Of a DNA stretch of 64,000 nucleotides, positions 40,809 to 50,481 are shown piece after piece. Below the pieces are notes generated by a model. That model did not search any database. It saw nothing but the letters and a program-made list of their open reading frames with translations, and was not told the origin of the DNA. Numbering within the stretch: position 1 is the first letter of the stretch; each line of letters starts with the position of its first letter. Source of the DNA: Flavobacterium frigoritolerans (lineage in GTDB: Bacteria > Bacteroidota > Bacteroidia > Flavobacteriales > Flavobacteriaceae); NCBI RefSeq assembly GCF_025847275.1, contig NZ_JAOZEV010000001.1, positions 124,001 through 188,000 on the forward strand, given 5' to 3'. The position numbers were made by a program, and so were the translations under genes.

Positions 40809-42185
40809 TTACATTCTCTTTTTTTTATGATAGTTCTTTGGGAAATAATAGGTCACTCCTAAACCAAAACGCCAATAAAAATCATCCCTGACTCCGCTAT
40901 CAACATAATCTATCATATCTGTAAAATTCACATTGTATTCTCCGTACACTTTTATACCAAGATTACTTGTTACTAAATACTCTAGCCCTCCTCCAAACTG
41001 AACTTTACTATGAAAATTTTTATACTTGGAGTTGAATCCTAAACCTGCTCCTCCAAAAACAAAAGGCGTAAAAACATCGTGAGGCAATATTGACAATTCT
41101 AAATTTAAATCCAGCGTTGCATAACCTACATCTAACTTATCTTTATTACCGAGTTTAAAAACATTTGTCGAAGCACTAATATCAAAAGCTGGGGTAATAA
41201 AAACTTTTGCCGCGCCTCTCGCCATTGGTTTTGCAACCGGATTAGGATAATCGCCCTGCATATAAGTTGCCCCACCTGATAATTCCAGCCCAAAACGTCC
41301 TCTTCTCTCGGTTAGGTTTCTTCCATAAAGTTGTGCTAAATCGGCTTCGCTTTTTTCATTATCATAGCCAGCAACAAAATTATCTACCTGAACTTGTGGT
41401 GCATCTACTTCCCAAAGCTTATCTTTAATTCCGTCTACAATAAGTCCCTCAACTGCTTTTTCGATAGCTTCAGTAACGGCTAATTGTATGGGTTCATTTC
41501 TGGTAAAACCTGTTTCAACTTCCAGAAGCCTGTTTAGGTTTACATATCGAAATAAATTAGCATCGACACTTTGTGATAAAATGGTTTTGGAAACATAAAC
41601 GGTATTTAAAATTTTACCATTTGATGTTGAAACTAGTCTTAGATAGACTGTAACTCTATCTTGTCTATATCTTACCGAAGCTCCTGCACCAAAATATCGA
41701 GCACCAAAACCTCCTGTAATTATATTTGTATCATAGGATATAATACCTCCTTCTAGCAAAACACCTGCAAATAAAAGAGGCGTTAATGGGGCTTCTTTTT
41801 CATTAGGTTTAGTAGAATATTCCTGTCTTGTAGATCTAATAATGTTTCTTTCATTAAGTAAATTTCCCAAGTTTTCACGTTCAATTGGAATAAACCATTT
41901 TGAGTCTTCAAGTGCTTTTATTAAAATAGAAGTAGCGCCTTGTGTAACTGCTGTACTAAATGTGCTTCCTTGTTCGATGGCTTTATACTGTCCTGTTTGA
42001 TCTTTAAATTTATACACCCCAACAACAATTTGTTCTTTAGGTTTAGGAATATTGGTTAATGCCGAGGTAGCAGGTGTATTCTCTCCATAAATAGCTTTTT
42101 GTACTCCAACTGGTTGATTAAAATAGGCACCACAGCCAGAGAATAAAAGAACTATTAGAACTCCAAAAAGTGATTTTTGATTCAT
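40809..42185 (-). CDS. csgG: CsgG-type curli secretion channel with C-terminal beta-barrel
   Basis: A 458-residue outer-membrane lipoprotein (lipobox LFSGCGAYF, cysteine about 18). Residues about 20-290 match CsgG, the nonameric channel that exports curli subunits: QIVVGVYKFKDQTGQYK, KALEDSKWFIPIERENLGNL (20 residues), LNERNIIR and LLFAGVLLEGGIISYDTN. An extra region at about 300-458 contains aromatic alternating strands (FGLELSGGATYMQGDYPNP, 19 residues; FWRFGLGVTYYFPKN-like end) that predict as an 8-strand OmpA/OmpW-like barrel. E. coli CsgG is about 277 residues, so this is a fusion-like long form. Confidence 0.88.
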   Translation of the reverse strand: MNQKSLFGVLIVLLFSGCGAYFNQPVGVQKAIYGENTPATSALTNIPKPKEQIVVGVYKFKDQTGQYKAIEQGSTFSTAVTQGATSILIKALEDSKWFIPIERENLGNLLNERNIIRSTRQEYSTKPNEKEAPLTPLLFAGVLLEGGIISYDTNIITGGFGARYFGAGASVRYRQDRVTVYLRLVSTSNGKILNTVYVSKTILSQSVDANLFRYVNLNRLLEVETGFTRNEPIQLAVTEAIEKAVEGLIVDGIKDKLWEVDAPQVQVDNFVAGYDNEKSEADLAQLYGRNLTERRGRFGLELSGGATYMQGDYPNPVAKPMARGAAKVFITPAFDISASTNVFKLGNKDKLDVGYATLDLNLELSILPHDVFTPFVFGGAGLGFNSKYKNFHSKVQFGGGLEYLVTSNLGIKVYGEYNVNFTDMIDYVDSGVRDDFYWRFGLGVTYYFPKNYHKKKRM

Positions 42186-42255
42186 AAGTGAGTCTTTATT
42201 AACTTATTACCGATAAAAATGCGAAAGATAGTATTAGGCAATAAAAAACATAAGC

Positions 42256-42693
42256 CTAATTGTTTCCAGGAACAATTACTTGTGTTTGTTCTCCTGTTTC
42301 TATATCCAAGATATCTACAACTAATCCCAGATTAGAATCGTAAACATCTACAGACAATGTTCCAAAAACATACGATCCAGGTTTAATTCCTCCTCCTGTA
42401 CCAGTACCAGTGCCCATTCCTGTGCCAAACTGATCTTCAAACAAAGAGTTCGAAAGTTTATTCAACAATTGGTTGTTAAGATTTTCTTTGAAACGTTGTA
42501 AATCTGATTTTTGTTCGAATCCAGTAGTTTTATCTTCTTTGTAGTCATTTTGTGCTTGCGCCGAACTAAGCAGCCAATTGTAGTTAAAAGTATCTCCCCC
42601 AAAAGCTGGGTTGATAGGTTTGTATGCTAGATCTTGCGCAACTGAAGTAAAACATATTCCTAGTAAACAAAATAGTAAAGTTATTGTCTTCAT
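42256..42693 (-). CDS. csgF: CsgF-type curli assembly factor
   Basis: About 145 residues. The start is set at the ATG at 42693, where a signal peptide begins (MKTITLLFCLLGICFTSVAQ, 20 residues). The mature start DLAYKPINPAFGGDTFNYNW (20 residues) followed by LLSSAQAQNDY matches the CsgF signature (nPsFGGnpxNGxxLLxxAxaQN). CsgF sits on CsgG at the cell surface and helps nucleation. The glycine/threonine-rich linker (about 95-112) is unusual. Gene spacing to csgG is 70 nt. Confidence 0.9.
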   Translation of the reverse strand: MKTITLLFCLLGICFTSVAQDLAYKPINPAFGGDTFNYNWLLSSAQAQNDYKEDKTTGFEQKSDLQRFKENLNNQLLNKLSNSLFEDQFGTGMGTGTGTGGGIKPGSYVFGTLSVDVYDSNLGLVVDILDIETGEQTQVIVPGNN

Positions 42694-42774
42694 TTTGGTA
42701 TTTTTAGGGTTAAAAATAATGGCCAAAAAACATTCAATTAATCTATTCGAAAGTCAACTAATTAAATGTAAAAC

Positions 42775-43509
42775 TTAATACTGAGTGATAAACTTATTTT
42801 GTCGTTCGATATTTTTAAAATACTTGAAAATTTTAGCCGATGATGATTCTGCCATGTATTTTAAAAACTCTTCGTCTGGTCTTGAAATAAATTCATCAAT
42901 TATTTCTCCATCAACATCTATCATTATCTTAGTAGTTCTTCCGAAGGTTAATTCTTCTCGAACTGTAACGATCTTATGTGATTTGATTTTTAATTTCGAA
43001 TATTCTGAATAAAAATAATCGTAAAAATCATTGCCCAACTTAGTCTTGGTATCGTTTGAAACTATACCATTCATTTCTAATCCGTCAATAGGTTTTGGAA
43101 TAGCAATTCTTGCTTCATCCTTTCCACCAAAAACTACTTTATCTTTTCCTATTACCGCATTATTATCGTCATATATTAACAACAGGATAATTATTTCATC
43201 GTCTTGAGTAAAATTTACCTGTGTTTTTGAAAGATTCACTTTTTGAATAGGCTCTAATGTAGCCCTGCCGTCCTGCGCATTATTTGATTGATTCGAATTT
43301 GATTTATTTACTTTTAAAACTGATAATTTATAAGAGATGTTTTTAAACTCTGATTTTAAATTTTCGACAGTTCCAGTAATGGCTAGCAAATTTTCAATTT
43401 TTTCAATTTCAATTTTTGCTTTTACCTCTGTATAAACCACTTGCGAATATGTATCTTGCATTACGAACAGCATCACAATTAAAATAATATTTATAGTATA
43501 TCGCTTCAT
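42775..43509 (-). CDS. csgE: CsgE-type curli assembly factor with N-terminal CsgH-like domain
   Basis: A 244-residue exported protein. Residues 1-22 are the signal peptide (ending DTYSQ). Residues about 130-244 match CsgE: EMNGIVSNDTKTKLGNDFYD (20 residues), the TVREELTFGRTTKIMIDVDG (20 residues) strand pair and a final FLKYMAESSSAKIFKYFKN. Residues about 25-120 match the pattern of CsgH, a small curlin chaperone: SYKLSVLKVNKSNSNQSNNA (20 residues) followed by QDGRATLEP. E. coli CsgE is about 129 residues, so the CsgH-like extension explains the extra length. The gene starts 4 nt after csgB. Confidence 0.82.
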   Translation of the reverse strand: MKRYTINIILIVMLFVMQDTYSQVVYTEVKAKIEIEKIENLLAITGTVENLKSEFKNISYKLSVLKVNKSNSNQSNNAQDGRATLEPIQKVNLSKTQVNFTQDDEIIILLLIYDDNNAVIGKDKVVFGGKDEARIAIPKPIDGLEMNGIVSNDTKTKLGNDFYDYFYSEYSKLKIKSHKIVTVREELTFGRTTKIMIDVDGEIIDEFISRPDEEFLKYMAESSSAKIFKYFKNIERQNKFITQY

Positions 43510-43513
43510 AGCC

Positions 43514-43999
43514 TCAATGATTGAAAATATAAATAGTGCCTGAATTTCCGGTTTGAGTAATTCTCATCCCCTCGGATATAGAATTTGATCCATTATTAAA
43601 AACATTCAGATTGCTTCCGTTTTGAATAATTGACATATTTATAGCCCCACTCGAGTATAAAGAAAAATCGCTCACCATATTATTATTTCCAGTTTGAACA
43701 ACTGATTGATTAATTTCTGGTGCTTTCTTATACATATTTATATAATTGTCATTCCCTATTTGACTAAGAACTACATTGGCATTATTACTAATGATACTTA
43801 CATCCGAAGTATTGTAATTCCCTATTTGCATAATATTTACAATATTATTATTCTGAACAAATAGATTGGCATTTTGATTTCTATAAGTATTATTTCCTTC
43901 CAACGCTTTTATAGCATACGAATCGAGTATCGGATTTAACCCCTGCGAGAAAGCAATACTTGTAAATAGAAATAATATTAAGTACACTATTGGTTTCAT
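43514..43999 (-). CDS. csgB: CsgB-type minor curlin (nucleator)
   Basis: A 161-residue secreted protein with a signal peptide (residues 1-18, ending IAFSQ) and five to six curlin-type strands in which N and Q alternate: NIVNIMQIGNYNTSDVSIIS (20 residues), NNANVVLSQIGNDNYINMY, QSVVQTGNNNM. The repeat periodicity is less regular than in CsgA, as in other nucleators. It ends 4 nt before csgE. It presumably seeds CsgA polymerisation at the surface. Confidence 0.82.
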   Translation of the reverse strand: MKPIVYLILFLFTSIAFSQGLNPILDSYAIKALEGNNTYRNQNANLFVQNNNIVNIMQIGNYNTSDVSIISNNANVVLSQIGNDNYINMYKKAPEINQSVVQTGNNNMVSDFSLYSSGAINMSIIQNGSNLNVFNNGSNSISEGMRITQTGNSGTIYIFNH

Positions 44000-44033
44000 G
44001 ATACATCTTTAAAATAAATCTTCTTTAAAAATT

Positions 44034-44063
44034 TATACCAGTTTTATATATAAAACTGGTATA
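44034..44063. terminator. Perfect 30-nt palindrome between csgA and csgB
   Basis: A 15-bp inverted repeat with no loop (TATACCAGTTTTATA and its complement) in the 111-bp gap between csgA and csgB. On the minus strand the transcript meets a T-rich run after it. It probably attenuates read-through and stabilises csgA mRNA. Confidence 0.55.
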
Positions 44064-44110
44064 AACTGAATTATAAGTAAAATTTAAAATTCTACTTCTT
44101 CAAGTAAAGC

Positions 44111-44800
44111 TTAGTTAGATTGGAAAACTATAGCTCCGTTTGCAATACCTGTTTGAGAAATAGTACTCATATGGTCATTACCCAATTGTAATGTAAGTGC
44201 AAAGTTAGCAGTCCCATTTTGGTAAACACTTGATGTATTGTCATATCCAAGTTGAGCTGTAATTGCAGTATTTCCGTCTCCTAATTGATAAATATCAGAA
44301 GTGTTAAACCAGTAAGATTGTACTACAAATGCATTGTTTCCATCTCCATCTTGGTCAATAGTTGATGAGTTACCTACAAAAAATTGTAATGTTGTTGCAT
44401 TATTGTTATCCCCAGATTGAGTTGTTGAAGATGTATTAAAAGCTCCTAATTGTGCTGTTAATGCAGTGTTGTTATTACCCATTTGGTCAATTACTGCAAT
44501 GTTTCCAAGGCCTAATTGTCCAATAGTAGCACTATTACTATCTCCATCCTGACTTACAGCTGCTATGTTAAGAATACCAACTTGAGTAACGTCTGATTCA
44601 TTTGAATCCCCTGTTTGTCCAACAAATGCTAAATTTGCTAAACCAAACTGTGTTACTTCTGAATCATTTGAAGAACCTACCTGAGCTACCAAAGCTCCAT
44701 TTATCCAACCTGTTTGATTTACATCACTCACATTGGCTTGCGCAATTGCTGCAGCACCTACAAATAGCATCGCGGAGATGCTTAAAACTACTTTTTTCAT
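44111..44800 (-). CDS. csgA: CsgA-type major curlin
   Basis: About 229 residues. The ATG at 44800 is chosen because a signal peptide begins there (MKKVVLSISAMLFVGAAAIA, 20 residues). After it the protein consists of about 19 consecutive 11-residue strand units with the pattern xxNxxxxxQxG, such as DSNESDVTQVG, DGNTAITAQLG and NNNTALTAQLG. This gives roughly nine 22-residue curlin repeats against five in E. coli CsgA. Such proteins form extracellular amyloid fibres in the biofilm matrix. First gene of the curli unit. Confidence 0.93.
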   Translation of the reverse strand: MKKVVLSISAMLFVGAAAIAQANVSDVNQTGWINGALVAQVGSSNDSEVTQFGLANLAFVGQTGDSNESDVTQVGILNIAAVSQDGDSNSATIGQLGLGNIAVIDQMGNNNTALTAQLGAFNTSSTTQSGDNNNATTLQFFVGNSSTIDQDGDGNNAFVVQSYWFNTSDIYQLGDGNTAITAQLGYDNTSSVYQNGTANFALTLQLGNDHMSTISQTGIANGAIVFQSN

Positions 44801-45149
44801 AATAAATATATTTAATTGGTTATTAATACAAATTATTATGTAGGTTTTGTGATGGGGAATCACTCCAAAAAATGTAATTGTAAGTAAGTTAAATAAATTT
44901 AAAAGAAGTGTTTTTATTTCTTAATTACGATTCAAATTTAAAGAACTTTCCTTTAATGAAATAAATACAAACGCCTATTTTTCAACAAGTTAATAGTCTT
45001 TTCGATGAACTGCAAAACAATAACGACGAAATGCTAATTTTATCTTAAATTACTATCAGAAAAAAATTACTAAATCTATTAAATTAATATTAGATTTTTA
45101 TTTCATTCTAAAAAATGCATTTTAAACGTCACTTTTGGATTTATTATAC
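44801..45149. other. Intergenic region upstream of csgA
   Basis: AT-rich and without open frames. On the minus strand it must carry the csgA promoter, but no element with both TTTG and TAnnTTTG at proper spacing could be fixed. The terminator at 45150-45182 bounds it on the right. Confidence 0.5.
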
Positions 45150-45200: not shown

Positions 45201-47390
45201 TTATTTTGTAAACAATAGCTCTCTATATTTAGTCAATGTCCAGATTTCGTTATCTACAAGTAATTCTAGTTTATCACAATGATTTCTTATATCCTCAAAA
45301 TAAGGTTTTACATTATTACAATACGCTTCTGCCATTTCTTGTGCATCTGTAAGATGATTTGCTTTCTTTCTTTCGTTAGTCATCGCTTCTACTTTAGAAT
45401 TGATTCCTTCGATATGTCCTGAAATTTGTTTAATCAATACAATTTGCTCTTTGGCTGTAGTAAGGAAATCATCTCCAAAAATTTCCTTTAACCCTTTTAC
45501 ATTCTCTATCAATGTATTTTGGTAGCGAATAGCAGTAGGAATAACATGGTTTTTCGAAATATCTCCTAAAACTCTTCCTTCTATTTGAATTTTCTTAGTG
45601 TACTCTTCCAATTCAATTTCGTAACGCGCTTCTACCTCAATGTGATTCATGATTCCCAATTCTGAGAACAAATCCAATGCTTTTTTAGATGCTCTTGCTT
45701 TTAATGCCTCTGGAGTTGTTTTATGATTACTCAAACCTCTTTTAGCAGCTTCTATTTCCCATGCTTCACTATATCCGTCTCCTTCAAAAAGGATTTTTTT
45801 AGATACCTTAATATACTCTCTTAAAACATTAAAGATAGCATCGTCTTTCTTCATGTCTTTTAGATCGATCAGAGCATCAACCTCAACTTTAAAGTCTTTT
45901 AATTGTTTTGCAACAATAGCATTAAGCGTAGTCATTGAATTAGCACAGTTTGCTGTTGAACCAACTGCTCTGAACTCAAATTTATTTCCTGTAAAAGCAA
46001 ATGGTGAAGTTCTGTTTCTATCAGTATTATCTAATAATACATCTGGAATTTTACCTACTACATTCAGTTTTAAATCTGTTTTTTCTTCTGGTGATAATTT
46101 TCCAGTTGTTACCCCTTCTAATTCTGCCAAAACCTTAGTTAATTGTTCTCCAATAAATACTGAGATAATTGCAGGTGGTGCTTCATTAGCTCCCAATCGG
46201 TGGTCATTACTTGCTGTTGCAATTGCTGCTCTTAGTAATTCTTCATAATCATTAACTGCTTTAATCGTATTGATAAAGAACGTTAAAAACTGTAAATTAC
46301 TCATTGGTGTTTTACTAGGACTCAACAAGTTTACTCCAGTATCTGTTGCCAACGACCAGTTGTTGTGTTTACCTGAACCATTAACTCCTTTAAATGGTTT
46401 TTCATGAAATAATACTTTAAAGTGATGGCGCTCGGCTACTTTTTGCATTACATCCATTAATAAACAGTTATGATCTACTGCTAGATTTGTCTCTTCAAAA
46501 ATTGGAGCCAACTCAAACTGATTTGGTGCTACCTCATTATGACGTGTTTTAACTGGTATTCCTAACAACATACATTCTTGTTCCAAATCTCTCATATAAA
46601 CTAATGCACGAGTAGGAATTGAACCAAAATAATGATCATCTAATTGTTGTCCTTTTGCAGATGTATGCCCTAACAGTGTTCTTCCTGTCATCATAAGATC
46701 AGGACGAGATTCTGCAAGAGATTTATCTATAAGGAAATATTCTTGCTCCCATCCCAGGGTTGCAGTAACTTTCTTTACATTTTTGTCAAAATATTTACAA
46801 ACATCAGTTGCTGCATCATCAATAGCAGATAGCGCTCTTAATAAAGGTATCTTATTATCTAATGCTTCACCTGTATAGGAAATGAAAACAGTAGGAATAC
46901 ATAAAGTAGTTCCAAATATAAATGCCGGTGATGTAGGATCCCAAGCTGTATATCCTCTTGCTTCAAATGTATTTCTTATTCCTCCATTTGGAAAACTTGA
47001 TGCATCTGGCTCTTGTTGTACCAATTGTGCTCCTCCAAATTTCTCAAATGAATCTGTACCATCATATGATGTCTCAAAAAAGGCATCGTGCTTTTCGGCA
47101 GTTGTACCTGTTAATGGCTGAAACCAGTGTGTATAATGAGTAACACCTTTAGAAAGTGCCCATTCTTTCATACCCATTGCAATATAATCCGCCAATTTTC
47201 TGTCTATCTTAGTTCCATGCTGAACCGCTCCCTGTACTCCTTTAAATGCATCCGAAGTCAAATATTGCTTCATTGCTTTATCGTTAAATACATTAGAACC
47301 AAAAATGGTTGATTTTCTGTCGGTTTCTTCAAACTGAACGGGCTTTCTTGTTGAAGCTTCTTTTAAAGCTTGGAAACGTAATGTTGACAT
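45201..47390 (-). CDS. glnN: Glutamine synthetase type III
   Basis: A 729-residue GSIII that makes glutamine from glutamate and ammonium with ATP. The family-specific N-terminus starts MSTLRFQALKEASTRKPVQF (20 residues). Catalytic segments include TATLGWEQEYFLIDKSLAES (20 residues), RHNEVAPNQFELAPIFEETN (20 residues), KGVNGSGKHNNWSLATDTG and NRTSPFAFTGNKFEFRAVGS (20 residues). Length is normal for GSIII of Bacteroidota. It is divergent from a GSII gene and shares with it a regulatory region that contains four CCCCCAT words. Confidence 0.97.
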   Translation of the reverse strand: MSTLRFQALKEASTRKPVQFEETDRKSTIFGSNVFNDKAMKQYLTSDAFKGVQGAVQHGTKIDRKLADYIAMGMKEWALSKGVTHYTHWFQPLTGTTAEKHDAFFETSYDGTDSFEKFGGAQLVQQEPDASSFPNGGIRNTFEARGYTAWDPTSPAFIFGTTLCIPTVFISYTGEALDNKIPLLRALSAIDDAATDVCKYFDKNVKKVTATLGWEQEYFLIDKSLAESRPDLMMTGRTLLGHTSAKGQQLDDHYFGSIPTRALVYMRDLEQECMLLGIPVKTRHNEVAPNQFELAPIFEETNLAVDHNCLLMDVMQKVAERHHFKVLFHEKPFKGVNGSGKHNNWSLATDTGVNLLSPSKTPMSNLQFLTFFINTIKAVNDYEELLRAAIATASNDHRLGANEAPPAIISVFIGEQLTKVLAELEGVTTGKLSPEEKTDLKLNVVGKIPDVLLDNTDRNRTSPFAFTGNKFEFRAVGSTANCANSMTTLNAIVAKQLKDFKVEVDALIDLKDMKKDDAIFNVLREYIKVSKKILFEGDGYSEAWEIEAAKRGLSNHKTTPEALKARASKKALDLFSELGIMNHIEVEARYEIELEEYTKKIQIEGRVLGDISKNHVIPTAIRYQNTLIENVKGLKEIFGDDFLTTAKEQIVLIKQISGHIEGINSKVEAMTNERKKANHLTDAQEMAEAYCNNVKPYFEDIRNHCDKLELLVDNEIWTLTKYRELLFTK

Positions 47391-47437
47391 GCTGACAAAT
47401 TTTAAGTTATTATTAATTTAGATTTTATAATAAAGTG

Positions 47438-47445
47438 CAAATATA
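47438..47445 (-). promoter_or_regulatory. -7 element of the glnN promoter
   Basis: On the minus strand TATATTTG lies at 47445-47438, 47 bp before the ATG. A CCCCCAT copy (47468-47474, reading ATGGGGG on this strand) lies 22 bp upstream, in the -33 region. Confidence 0.6.
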
Positions 47446-47464
47446 ATAATAAATCCCCTTTTTT

Positions 47465-47722
47465 ACACCCCCATCAATACCTTTTATGTAACTTTTTAAA
47501 AGCACACCCCCATCTTTTCGAAGTAATTTAACAAAACCCCTCGGTTTTCAGCATTATTGAAACAATTTAATAACCACTAGATAACGCTCATTTTAAAAAA
47601 AATCACTCATAATTGCGAAATTATTTTTTATACCCCCATAAAATTGACTATTTAAAAATTTAGGAATCAAAAATTGAGCTTATGCGAAAAATAACAATAC
47701 CATAAATAAAAATTACCCCCAT
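47465..47722. promoter_or_regulatory. Four CCCCCAT motifs in the divergent glutamine synthetase region
   Basis: CCCCCAT occurs at 47468-47474, 47507-47513, 47633-47639 and 47716-47722, always on the plus strand and usually as AyACCCCCAT. In DNA this AT-rich, four C-runs of length five are striking. The outer copies are 22 and 25 bp from the two -7 elements. Inferred to be binding sites of a shared, probably nitrogen-responsive, regulator. Confidence 0.55.
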
Positions 47723-47747
47723 TTTTCTAGCAATAAAAAAATAAATA

Positions 47748-47755
47748 TATATTTG
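47748..47755 (+). promoter_or_regulatory. -7 element of the type II glutamine synthetase promoter
   Basis: TATATTTG matches the consensus exactly and is 40 bp before the ATG at 47796. A CCCCCAT copy takes the place of a normal -33 element 25 bp upstream. Confidence 0.6.
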
Positions 47756-47795
47756 ACCCAACAAAAAAATCCAAAAAAAATTAATTTATATTATT

Positions 47796-48812
47796 ATGGC
47801 TAAAATAAAGTTAGAGTACATTTGGTTAGATGGATATGAACCAACTCAAAATCTTAGAAGCAAAACTAAAGTTGAAGAACACGAAAATTTTAAAGGAACA
47901 CTAGAAGAACTTGGGAATTGGTCATTTGACGGATCATCAACTAAACAAGCCGAAGGTGGTTCTTCTGACTGTTTATTAGTTCCTGTTTCAATTTACCCAG
48001 ATCCAACTCGTATCAATGGATACTTAGTTATGTCTGAAGTTATGTATGCTGATGGAGTACCGCATCCTTCTAACGGTAGAGCTACTATTGATGATGATAA
48101 TGATGATTTCTGGTTTGGTTTTGAACAAGAGTATTTCATCATGGACACTAAAACTTTATTGCCATTAGGTTTCCCTGTTGGAGGTTATCCTGCTCCACAA
48201 GGTATGTACTACTGCTCTGTAGGTGGGAAAAACACGCACGGTAGAAAATTAGTTGAAGAACACGCTGATTTATGTATCGCTGCTGGTCTTAACTTTGAAG
48301 GTATCAACCAAGAGGTTGCTTGCGGACAATGGGAATTCCAATTATTTGCTAAAGGTGCAAAAAAAGCGGGTGACGAAATTTGGATTGCCAGATACTTATT
48401 AGATCGATTGACTGAGAAATATGGTTACTATATCGAATACCACCCTAAACCTCTTGGTGATACCGATTGGAATGGTTCTGGTATGCATGCTAATTTCTCT
48501 AACGAAGTTTTAAGAACTTGTGGAGATCAAGCTACTTACGAAAGAATCTGTGAGGCTTTCCGTCCTGTAACTGCTGAGCACATTGCTGTTTACGGTGCTT
48601 ACAACGATTTACGTTTAACTGGTAAACATGAAACTGCTTCTATTCATGATTTCTCTTTCGGAATCTCTGATAGAGGTGCATCGATAAGAATTCCATTAAT
48701 TACAGTACAAAAAGGTTGGAAAGGTTGGTTGGAAGACAGAAGACCTGCATCTAACGGTGACCCATATAAAATTGCTGCTAGAATTATCAAAACTGTAAAA
48801 TCAGCATTGTAA
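47796..48812 (+). CDS. Glutamine synthetase type II (eukaryotic-type)
   Basis: A 338-residue GSII, the type typical of eukaryotes and found in some bacteria. The N-terminal beta-grasp begins KIKLEYIWLDGYEPTQNLRS (20 residues). The family motifs ELGNWSFDGSSTKQAEGGSS (20 residues), WFGFEQEYFIMD, GINQEVACGQWEFQLF and WNGSGMHANFSNE are all intact. It is much shorter than GSIII and not a fragment of it. Having both enzymes divergently placed suggests complementary regulation of ammonium assimilation. Confidence 0.96.
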   Translation: MAKIKLEYIWLDGYEPTQNLRSKTKVEEHENFKGTLEELGNWSFDGSSTKQAEGGSSDCLLVPVSIYPDPTRINGYLVMSEVMYADGVPHPSNGRATIDDDNDDFWFGFEQEYFIMDTKTLLPLGFPVGGYPAPQGMYYCSVGGKNTHGRKLVEEHADLCIAAGLNFEGINQEVACGQWEFQLFAKGAKKAGDEIWIARYLLDRLTEKYGYYIEYHPKPLGDTDWNGSGMHANFSNEVLRTCGDQATYERICEAFRPVTAEHIAVYGAYNDLRLTGKHETASIHDFSFGISDRGASIRIPLITVQKGWKGWLEDRRPASNGDPYKIAARIIKTVKSAL

Positions 48813-49512: not shown

Positions 49513-50481
49513 ATGATTGTCTGGATTCTATTTTTAGCAGCGATAATGGGTATCCTAGCGCTTGATCTTGGTGTATTTAACAAAACTCCTCATATTATAA
49601 GTACTAAGGAAGCCAGTAAATGGACTCTTATTTGGGTAAGCGTCTCGTTTTTATTCTCTGGTGTTATATATTGGCTGTACACTACCAATTATATCGAAAA
49701 TCCAGATGGATTAAAACCTACAGCAGCAGCTATAAAATTCATCACAGGCTATTTAATCGAACTCTCTTTAAGTATTGATAATATTTTTGTGATAGCTATT
49801 ATTTTTGCCTCATTTAAGATTCCGCAAAAATACCAACATCGTGTTTTATTCTGGGGAATTTTGGGTGCTATCGTATTCAGAGGTCTTATGATATTCTTTG
49901 GTGTAATGCTTATTAATAAATTTACTTGGACAACGTACCTATTTGGGGGTTTCTTACTTTTTACAGCTATGAAAATGTTATTCTCGGGTAAAGAGGAAGA
50001 TTTTCATCCAAAGGATTCTTTTATATATAAAGTTTTAGGAAAAGTAATTCCGATTACTTCTCACATGGAGCATGAGAAATTTTTCATATTAACCGAAAAA
50101 GGAAAGAAGGCAGCCACTCCACTATTTGTCGCTTTAATAGTAATTGAGTTTATGGATGTATTATTTGCAATCGACAGCGTTCCAGCTATTCTCGCCATAA
50201 CAAAAGATCCTTTTTTGGTATTCAGCTCAAACATATTTGCTATTCTCGGATTACGTTCGATGTATTTTTTCCTTGCTAATATGCTGGCGAAATTCAGTTA
50301 TCTAGAATACAGCCTAATCGCTATTCTAAGTTTTGTAGGTCTTAAAATGTTACTTCACGATTATATCGAAGTACCCGAATGGGGCTCTCTTGCATTTATT
50401 GCCCTTTCGCTTATAGTAGGTATTATTGTTTCATTGCAATCAAGCAAAAGCAATGAAGGGATTTCTAAAACAGAAGAATAA
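49513..50481 (+). CDS. TerC/Alx-family integral membrane protein
   Basis: A 322-residue inner-membrane protein with about 8-9 hydrophobic segments. The acidic intramembrane motifs ELSLSIDNIFVIAIIFASF (19 residues) and EFMDVLFAIDSVPAILAIT (19 residues) are those of the TerC family, whose members are linked to tellurite resistance and manganese export. A histidine- and lysine-rich cytoplasmic loop sits near 155-190. It is monocistronic by spacing. Metal specificity is unknown. Confidence 0.9.
   Translation: MIVWILFLAAIMGILALDLGVFNKTPHIISTKEASKWTLIWVSVSFLFSGVIYWLYTTNYIENPDGLKPTAAAIKFITGYLIELSLSIDNIFVIAIIFASFKIPQKYQHRVLFWGILGAIVFRGLMIFFGVMLINKFTWTTYLFGGFLLFTAMKMLFSGKEEDFHPKDSFIYKVLGKVIPITSHMEHEKFFILTEKGKKAATPLFVALIVIEFMDVLFAIDSVPAILAITKDPFLVFSSNIFAILGLRSMYFFLANMLAKFSYLEYSLIAILSFVGLKMLLHDYIEVPEWGSLAFIALSLIVGIIVSLQSSKSNEGISKTEE

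Follow-up and report, generated by a model that had tools for sequence, protein, structure and literature searches.

The 405-bp gap between the divergently transcribed GSIII and GSII glutamine synthetase genes of Flavobacterium frigoritolerans probably contains an operator belonging to a class-wide nitrogen-assimilation regulon, in which a pair of dyads would be read by a dimeric protein and promoters without a TTG at -33 would be activated. The preliminary description of this DNA had proposed that the repeated heptamer CCCCCAT could bind an unknown nitrogen regulator. The part of this proposal that invokes a shared, site-like element at nitrogen genes is well supported, whereas the choice of CCCCCAT as the motif is not.

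The GSIII-GSII locus

The window (the whole 64-kb stretch of DNA that was analysed) contains the following genes and predicted promoter elements:

45201..47390, minus strand: GSIII glutamine synthetase, 729 aa (Pfam GSIII_N PF12437, 2.4e-76; Gln-synt_C-ter PF18318, 7.8e-42)
47796..48812, plus strand: GSII (eukaryote-type) glutamine synthetase, 338 aa (NCBIfam gln_syn_GlnII NF041605, 4.1e-108)
47438..47445, minus strand: GSIII -7 box TATATTTG, assigned from the sequence; predicted transcription start ~47433; same box in F. hydatis (L346) and genome G004 (L010)
47748..47755, plus strand: GSII -7 box TATATTTG, assigned from the sequence; predicted transcription start ~47760

The -7 boxes were placed at -12 to -5, following the accessible text of PMC9723704, which gives TAnnTTTG at these positions as the promoter element of F. 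psychrophilum. The larger protein is a GSIII, with a full-length match to PDB 3o6x (E 4.3e-288). The smaller one scores 361.5 bits against NF041605, below the curated cut-off of 500, but is nonetheless a GSII; it matches 16 distinct PDB glutamine synthetase chains (344-423 aa) at E 3.4e-88 to 1.2e-73, including 4bax, 3fky and 2d3a at E<=3.7e-84, and is 97% identical to its best named relatives, all from Flavobacterium. The pairing of GSII with GSIII, initially described as uncommon, is usual in Flavobacteriaceae: the two genes are divergent in 24 of the 30 GSIII loci of the genus, in 21 of 29 GSII loci of other genera and in 75 of 80 named GSII loci. The gap itself has a G+C content of 24%.

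CCCCCAT repeats and the conserved C4 core

CCCCCAT occurs at 47468, 47507, 47633 and 47716, always on the plus strand, and these are its sole copies in the window. For 64 kb this count is ordinary (shuffle mean 2.82; at least four copies in 31 of 100 shuffles). However, four copies within the gap were reached in none of 5000 dinucleotide and none of 20000 mononucleotide shuffles (dinucleotide mean 0.18, maximum 2), so that the reported run of same-strand repeats between GSIII and GSII is confirmed as clustering beyond chance. Their reported proximity to the -33 regions is also fair, given that, relative to the predicted starts, the copy at 47716 falls near -44 (GSII) and the 47468 block between about -35 and -41 (GSIII). 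The 4.8-Mb genome contains 121 copies, compared with 74 for the pattern read backwards; among the 100 of these 121 places that were inspected, nowhere else do three or more copies fall within 300 bp. The same 100 places show two other close pairs, one in a coding frame (L118) and one in a contig of ribosomal appearance (L117, by eye).

The heptamer itself is not what relatives keep. Exact CCCCCAT/ATGGGGG is absent from 71 of 80 named relatives and present once in the other 9. When the gap is aligned with those of F. hydatis and G004, the C4 core is kept in all three at four of the five C-run places, and the bases 3' of CCCC vary; the fifth run (the 47468 block) is C4 in G004 and just CCC in F. 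hydatis. CCCCCAT as a motif is thus without support. What recurs is the spacing: two C4 blocks lie 51-54 bp apart in 62 of the 80 named relatives and 84 bp apart in one, with no such pair in 17, and the last C4 block starts 32-34 bp 5' of the TAnnTTTG box in 75 of 76 (32 bp in the window). The CCCC core is one half of a dyad of ~20 bp. The single orientation noted at the outset is accordingly true of the window copies only; the full site in relatives is a palindrome, of which the window keeps mostly left halves.

The paired dyad

The dyad has the consensus ACCC(C/T)-N10-(A/G)GGGT, 19-20 bp long with an A/T centre. The upstream block takes the form ACCCTAAAAAAATAGGGT or ACCCCTAAAATTAAAGGGGT in other genera, and the same palindrome is found at amtB promoters; the consensus of 59 modules (A2) is AATACCCnTAAAATTATAGGG...ATAAAAAT...nCCCTATTTTTTAnnGGG. 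The dyads are paired, with centres ~53 bp apart, i.e., five helical turns at 10.5 bp per turn.

Dyads were scanned with a hand-set PWM written after inspection of GSII and amtB promoters, and the two members of a pair could be separated by anything from 25 to 130 bp. In 80 of the 97 promoters scanned, the top-scoring pair has a spacing of 50-54 bp; the set of 97 leaves out six amtB rows of other kinds and four rows with less than 200 bp upstream. By group, this spacing is seen in 18/24 GSII promoters of the genus, 26/29 GSII promoters of other genera (without L039, a duplicate of the window's locus), 14/14 amtB promoters of class 1, 5/6 of class 2, and 17/24 promoters of GSIII alone, the last set being not wholly unbiased because some of its rows entered through matches of model R1 (see below). 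The 95% level of a mononucleotide-shuffle control is exceeded by 70 of 80 promoters and not by the other 10.

The exact palindrome ACCCN{11,12}GGGT proved useless as a search pattern when taken alone, with 28 distinct places in the genome of F. frigoritolerans and 20 in the control; both strands give the same count, as they must for a pattern identical to its reverse complement. Among the 28 places is a dyad ~30 bp upstream of the second amtB gene (C5:80434). De novo EM ranked the ACCCC dyad first only in other genera; among promoters of the genus the best palindromic solution was a T-tract, with the dyad ranked lower.

Genes associated with the dyad pair

Model R1 (83 positions) was built from 55 GSII and amtB modules, with GSIII kept out of the training set. 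At E<=0.003, it matches in 65 of 80 Flavobacteriaceae genomes and has no match in 15. At E<=1e-4, it identifies 85 distinct places in the 80 genomes, 83 of them at nitrogen genes: 29 before GSII (46-74 bp upstream of the gene), 39 at glnK/amtB/porin operons, 9 at GSIII and 6 at ald, with 2 unassigned (L224, L239); the tally was made by hand, with genes named from their N-terminal sequence and one example of each kind checked against Pfam. Many of the 29 GSII places and the amtB of F. frigoritolerans were in the training set; without these groups, 53 of 55 places are still at nitrogen genes. One cis element is therefore shared by independent nitrogen genes across genomes. Clusters equally common at unrelated promoters, which the preliminary description had named as fatal to its proposal, were not found with the dyad-pair model.

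The porin belongs to the BBP2 family (Pfam), and on the opposite flank of the glnK/amtB/porin modules gltB, where present, usually starts at a distance of ~310-320 bp. The porin of F. frigoritolerans itself, one of the 39 operon places, lies ~0.7 kb from its match and is less sure. Weaker R1 matches are more mixed: 14 regions read in the genus (L153-L166) comprise five at nitrogen genes, namely two porins and single cases of ald (L155), urtA/ureA (L156) and narK (L157, a single dyad), and nine that are not, and 13 matches at E>1e-4 (L244-L256) in the Flavobacteriaceae set comprise eight at nitrogen genes and five that are not. Glutamate dehydrogenase was rejected as a target: its weak match in F. 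frigoritolerans is kept in none of four orthologs. Under a second model, R2 (59 modules, none from GSIII), the amtB of this genome, a member of the training set, stands out at E 2.4e-11.

Outside Flavobacteriaceae, R1 at E<=0.001 matches in 17 of 119 genomes of the class, where its 12 loci beyond the family include 8 before GSIII, 1 before amtB and 3 before other genes. R2 matches in 31 of 197 class genomes, a set that overlaps the previous one, with 22 examined loci beyond the family (13 before GSIII, 1 ald, 1 amtB, 7 something else). Most class genomes have no match at the cut-off used. Given that matches also precede nitrogen genes outside Flavobacteriaceae, the element is older than the family.

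The degenerate copy in the window

In the window, the following sites and related features are recognized (no strand assigned):

47714..47734: near dyad of the GSII pair, degenerate (PWM scan); left half TACCCCC, right half decayed; centre ~ -36
47631..47651: far dyad of the GSII pair, half-site only (PWM scan); centre ~ -119; C4 core kept in F. hydatis and G004
47640..47669: ~30 bp extra between the GSII sites; AAAATTGA at 47640, repeated at 47670 (by eye)
47455..47458: extra C4 block on the GSIII side, kept in F. hydatis and G004
47467..47474: half-site ACCCCCAT on the GSIII side, ~ -35 to -41; C4 in G004, CCC in F. hydatis
47506..47513: half-site ACCCCCAT on the GSIII side, ~ -73 to -80; C4 core kept in F. 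hydatis and G004, following bases not

The window element is a degenerate descendant of the conserved pair that consists mostly of half-sites. The best R1 match in the window, at 47669-47726 and overlapping the near dyad, scores 14.1 bits (E 0.0029 in 64 kb), and R2 gives this copy E 0.125 in the genome. Its two GSII sites are separated by 83 bp, or nearly eight turns, compared with ~53 bp in most relatives. The ~30 extra bp also occur in F. hydatis and G004; in L019, AAAATTGA lies directly 3' of CCCC (by eye). On the other side, the two extra half-sites are 39 bp apart, which suggests that GSIII may have gained regulator contacts of its own in the lineage of the window.

Promoter geometry, direction of control and alternative explanations

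In 42 of 53 GSII promoters, the centre of the near dyad falls between -36 and -39. The same position is seen in 18 of 61 module matches at glnK, porin and amtB genes, with the far dyad at -88 to -92; the remaining matches have no perfect box or a box elsewhere (e.g., +28 in L206, -142 in L240). Because few GSII promoters have TTG near -33 (8/118, compared with 29/110 TAnnTTTG sites of the window), an activator that replaces the -33 contact would fit, and activation from the dyad near -37 is the favoured reading of this arrangement. Under this reading, a dimeric DNA-binding protein would occupy the two dyads from the same side of the helix, the near one overlapping the -33 position and its partner five turns upstream, and together they would recruit RNA polymerase to TAnnTTTG promoters that lack the -33 TTG. 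Glutamine synthetase, GOGAT and ammonium uptake would thereby respond together to nitrogen status.

A different geometry is seen in the genus at amtB promoters of class 2 (5 of 6) and at promoters of GSIII alone (11 of 24 rows, two of these with other spacing), where the pair lies near +4/-49; therefore, repression suits these promoters better. More generally, the same operator might be bound by a repressor in nitrogen excess, with one dyad always within the region covered by the polymerase (-38 or +4) and the second, five turns upstream, stabilizing the complex via looping or cooperativity. We consider this a less likely but serious alternative: in either placement (-38/-91 or +4/-49) the core promoter carries a dyad, and the conserved ATAAAAAT tract in the spacer could aid bending, but the rarity of TTG at GSII promoters is what activator-dependent promoters would show, albeit as indirect evidence. 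In Prevotella ruminicola, according to the accessible text of PMC5552732, amtB, glnK, glnN-2 and gltBD are regulated together, 26-69 fold, and are higher on plentiful ammonium, so that the response to nitrogen could run in either direction.

The remaining explanations appear far less probable. That CCCCCAT is a lineage-specific motif of a separate regulator is improbable: its four copies within 255 bp are beyond what the dinucleotide shuffles produce, but the sequence that follows CCCC is variable among the closest relatives, most relatives have no copy, and the window cores coincide in position with the conserved dyads. An RNA element or terminator, instead of a protein-binding site, is barely credible. 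C-run/G-run inverted repeats can form hairpins, and two weak R1 matches (L158, L165) are terminator-like; both dyads, however, lie upstream of the predicted start in GSII and in most glnK and porin promoters, and no Rfam match was obtained up to E 1. Just as implausible are NtrC-type enhancer sites serving sigma-54 promoters, which the paired dyads at nitrogen genes bring to mind. Compared with TGGCACN5TTGC, the most similar site has two mismatches in 1 of 54 GSII upstream regions, three in 8, four in 35 and five in 10, near the level of 162 shuffles (three in 15, four in 89, five in 58), so that no -24/-12 promoter is evident in these regions, and TAnnTTTG boxes are present instead. Furthermore, the sigma-54 regulon of F. 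psychrophilum comprises envelope stress, motility and exported proteins in the accessible text of PMC9723704.

Comparison with known systems and implications

Nitrogen control in other bacteria offers several points of comparison. In Proteobacteria, glutamine synthetase and ammonium-transport genes are controlled by NtrC and sigma-54 through upstream dyads that come in pairs; here, in contrast, the dyad is different, there is no -24/-12 signal, the promoters are of the TAnnTTTG type and the near dyad lies at -36 to -39. NtcA of cyanobacteria (CRP family) recognizes a GTA-N8-TAC dyad near -40 at glnA and amt genes with a sigma-70-type -10 box, whereas the present element, compared by eye using the A2 consensus, is ACCC-N12-GGGT in two copies ~53 bp apart. 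GlnR and TnrA of Bacillus (MerR family) exert nitrogen control via dyads of ~17-20 bp with an A/T centre and TGTNA...TNACA half-sites; the centre is likewise A/T here, but the A2 consensus contains no TGTNA...TNACA. Operators of the MerR, LuxR/NarL, Rrf2 and CsoR types have ACC...GGT or CCCC/GGGG half-sites at a similar distance, and by this resemblance these are possible candidate families for the reader protein.

None of the dyad-pair matches that were classified precedes a transcription-factor gene, and the other weak R2 matches in the genome of F. frigoritolerans do not point to a regulator gene. A LacI-type gene follows amtB in one genome only (G106, L219). A literature search, in which subscription papers were poorly covered, returned no regulator or operator of this kind for nitrogen genes of Bacteroidota. 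A close parallel is the amtB-glnK-glnN-gltBD set of P. ruminicola, a member of the same class with the same gene set and a joint change with nitrogen supply; the accessible text of PMC5552732 contains no occurrence of "transcription factor", "NtrC" or "promoter" and describes no regulator or promoter element.

Bacteroidota are a dominant group in many guts, soils and seas, with ammonium genes that shift in concert by tens of fold, as seen in Prevotella (PMC5552732, accessible text). A defined operator makes the regulator findable by pull-down and allows regulon annotation in new genomes. For the class Bacteroidia as a whole, we see about an even chance that the pair marks an ancestral nitrogen regulon, whose reader protein would come from a family new to nitrogen control and would replace the -33 contact through two dyads five turns apart. 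If so, this protein would do in Bacteroidia the job that NtrC, NtcA or GlnR does elsewhere.

Conserved sequence around the dyads

The stretch adjoining the half-site at 47507, TCTTTTCGAAGTAATTTAACAAAA (47513-47536), is the same in the sequence alignment with the nearest relatives, F. hydatis (L346) and genome G004 (L010), and the alignment of 59 modules (A2) reveals a conserved ATAAAAAT tract, which in many modules lies halfway between both dyads.

Dyad-like matches and a second palindrome

One match to the 83-position module model (R1), at L239 (G123:C38:527832), is a strong dyad pair (E 7.4e-6); the genes 3' of it encode a short stress-protein-like product and a permease-like one, with no evident nitrogen gene. 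Another R1 match, at L160 (G016:C83:14817), is dyad-like (E 0.005), intragenic and probably due to chance. By eye, the gene containing it resembles that for beta-ureidopropionase, within a pyrimidine-breakdown cluster.

A palindrome resembling ACCC[GA]CTAAATTAGCGGGT, distinct from the module dyad, occurs at five places in the F. frigoritolerans genome:
C6: 125826, 126954, 128667
C23: 417780, 419201

Neighboring genes

The small genome G106 (L219), and only this one, carries a gene for a LacI-type regulator immediately 3' of glnK-amtB. Within the window, the glutamine synthetase genes have the following neighbors:
40809-44863, curli-type functional-amyloid cluster adjoining GSIII (CsgG, CsgF, CsgE and a curlin-repeat protein, from Pfam)
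49513-50481, TerC-family membrane protein, after GSII

One 161-aa member of the curli-type cluster had no match in the Pfam search. In L013 and L014, GSIII loci that lack GSII, visual inspection suggests a protein start (MIVWIS...) similar to that of the TerC-family protein immediately 5' of GSIII.
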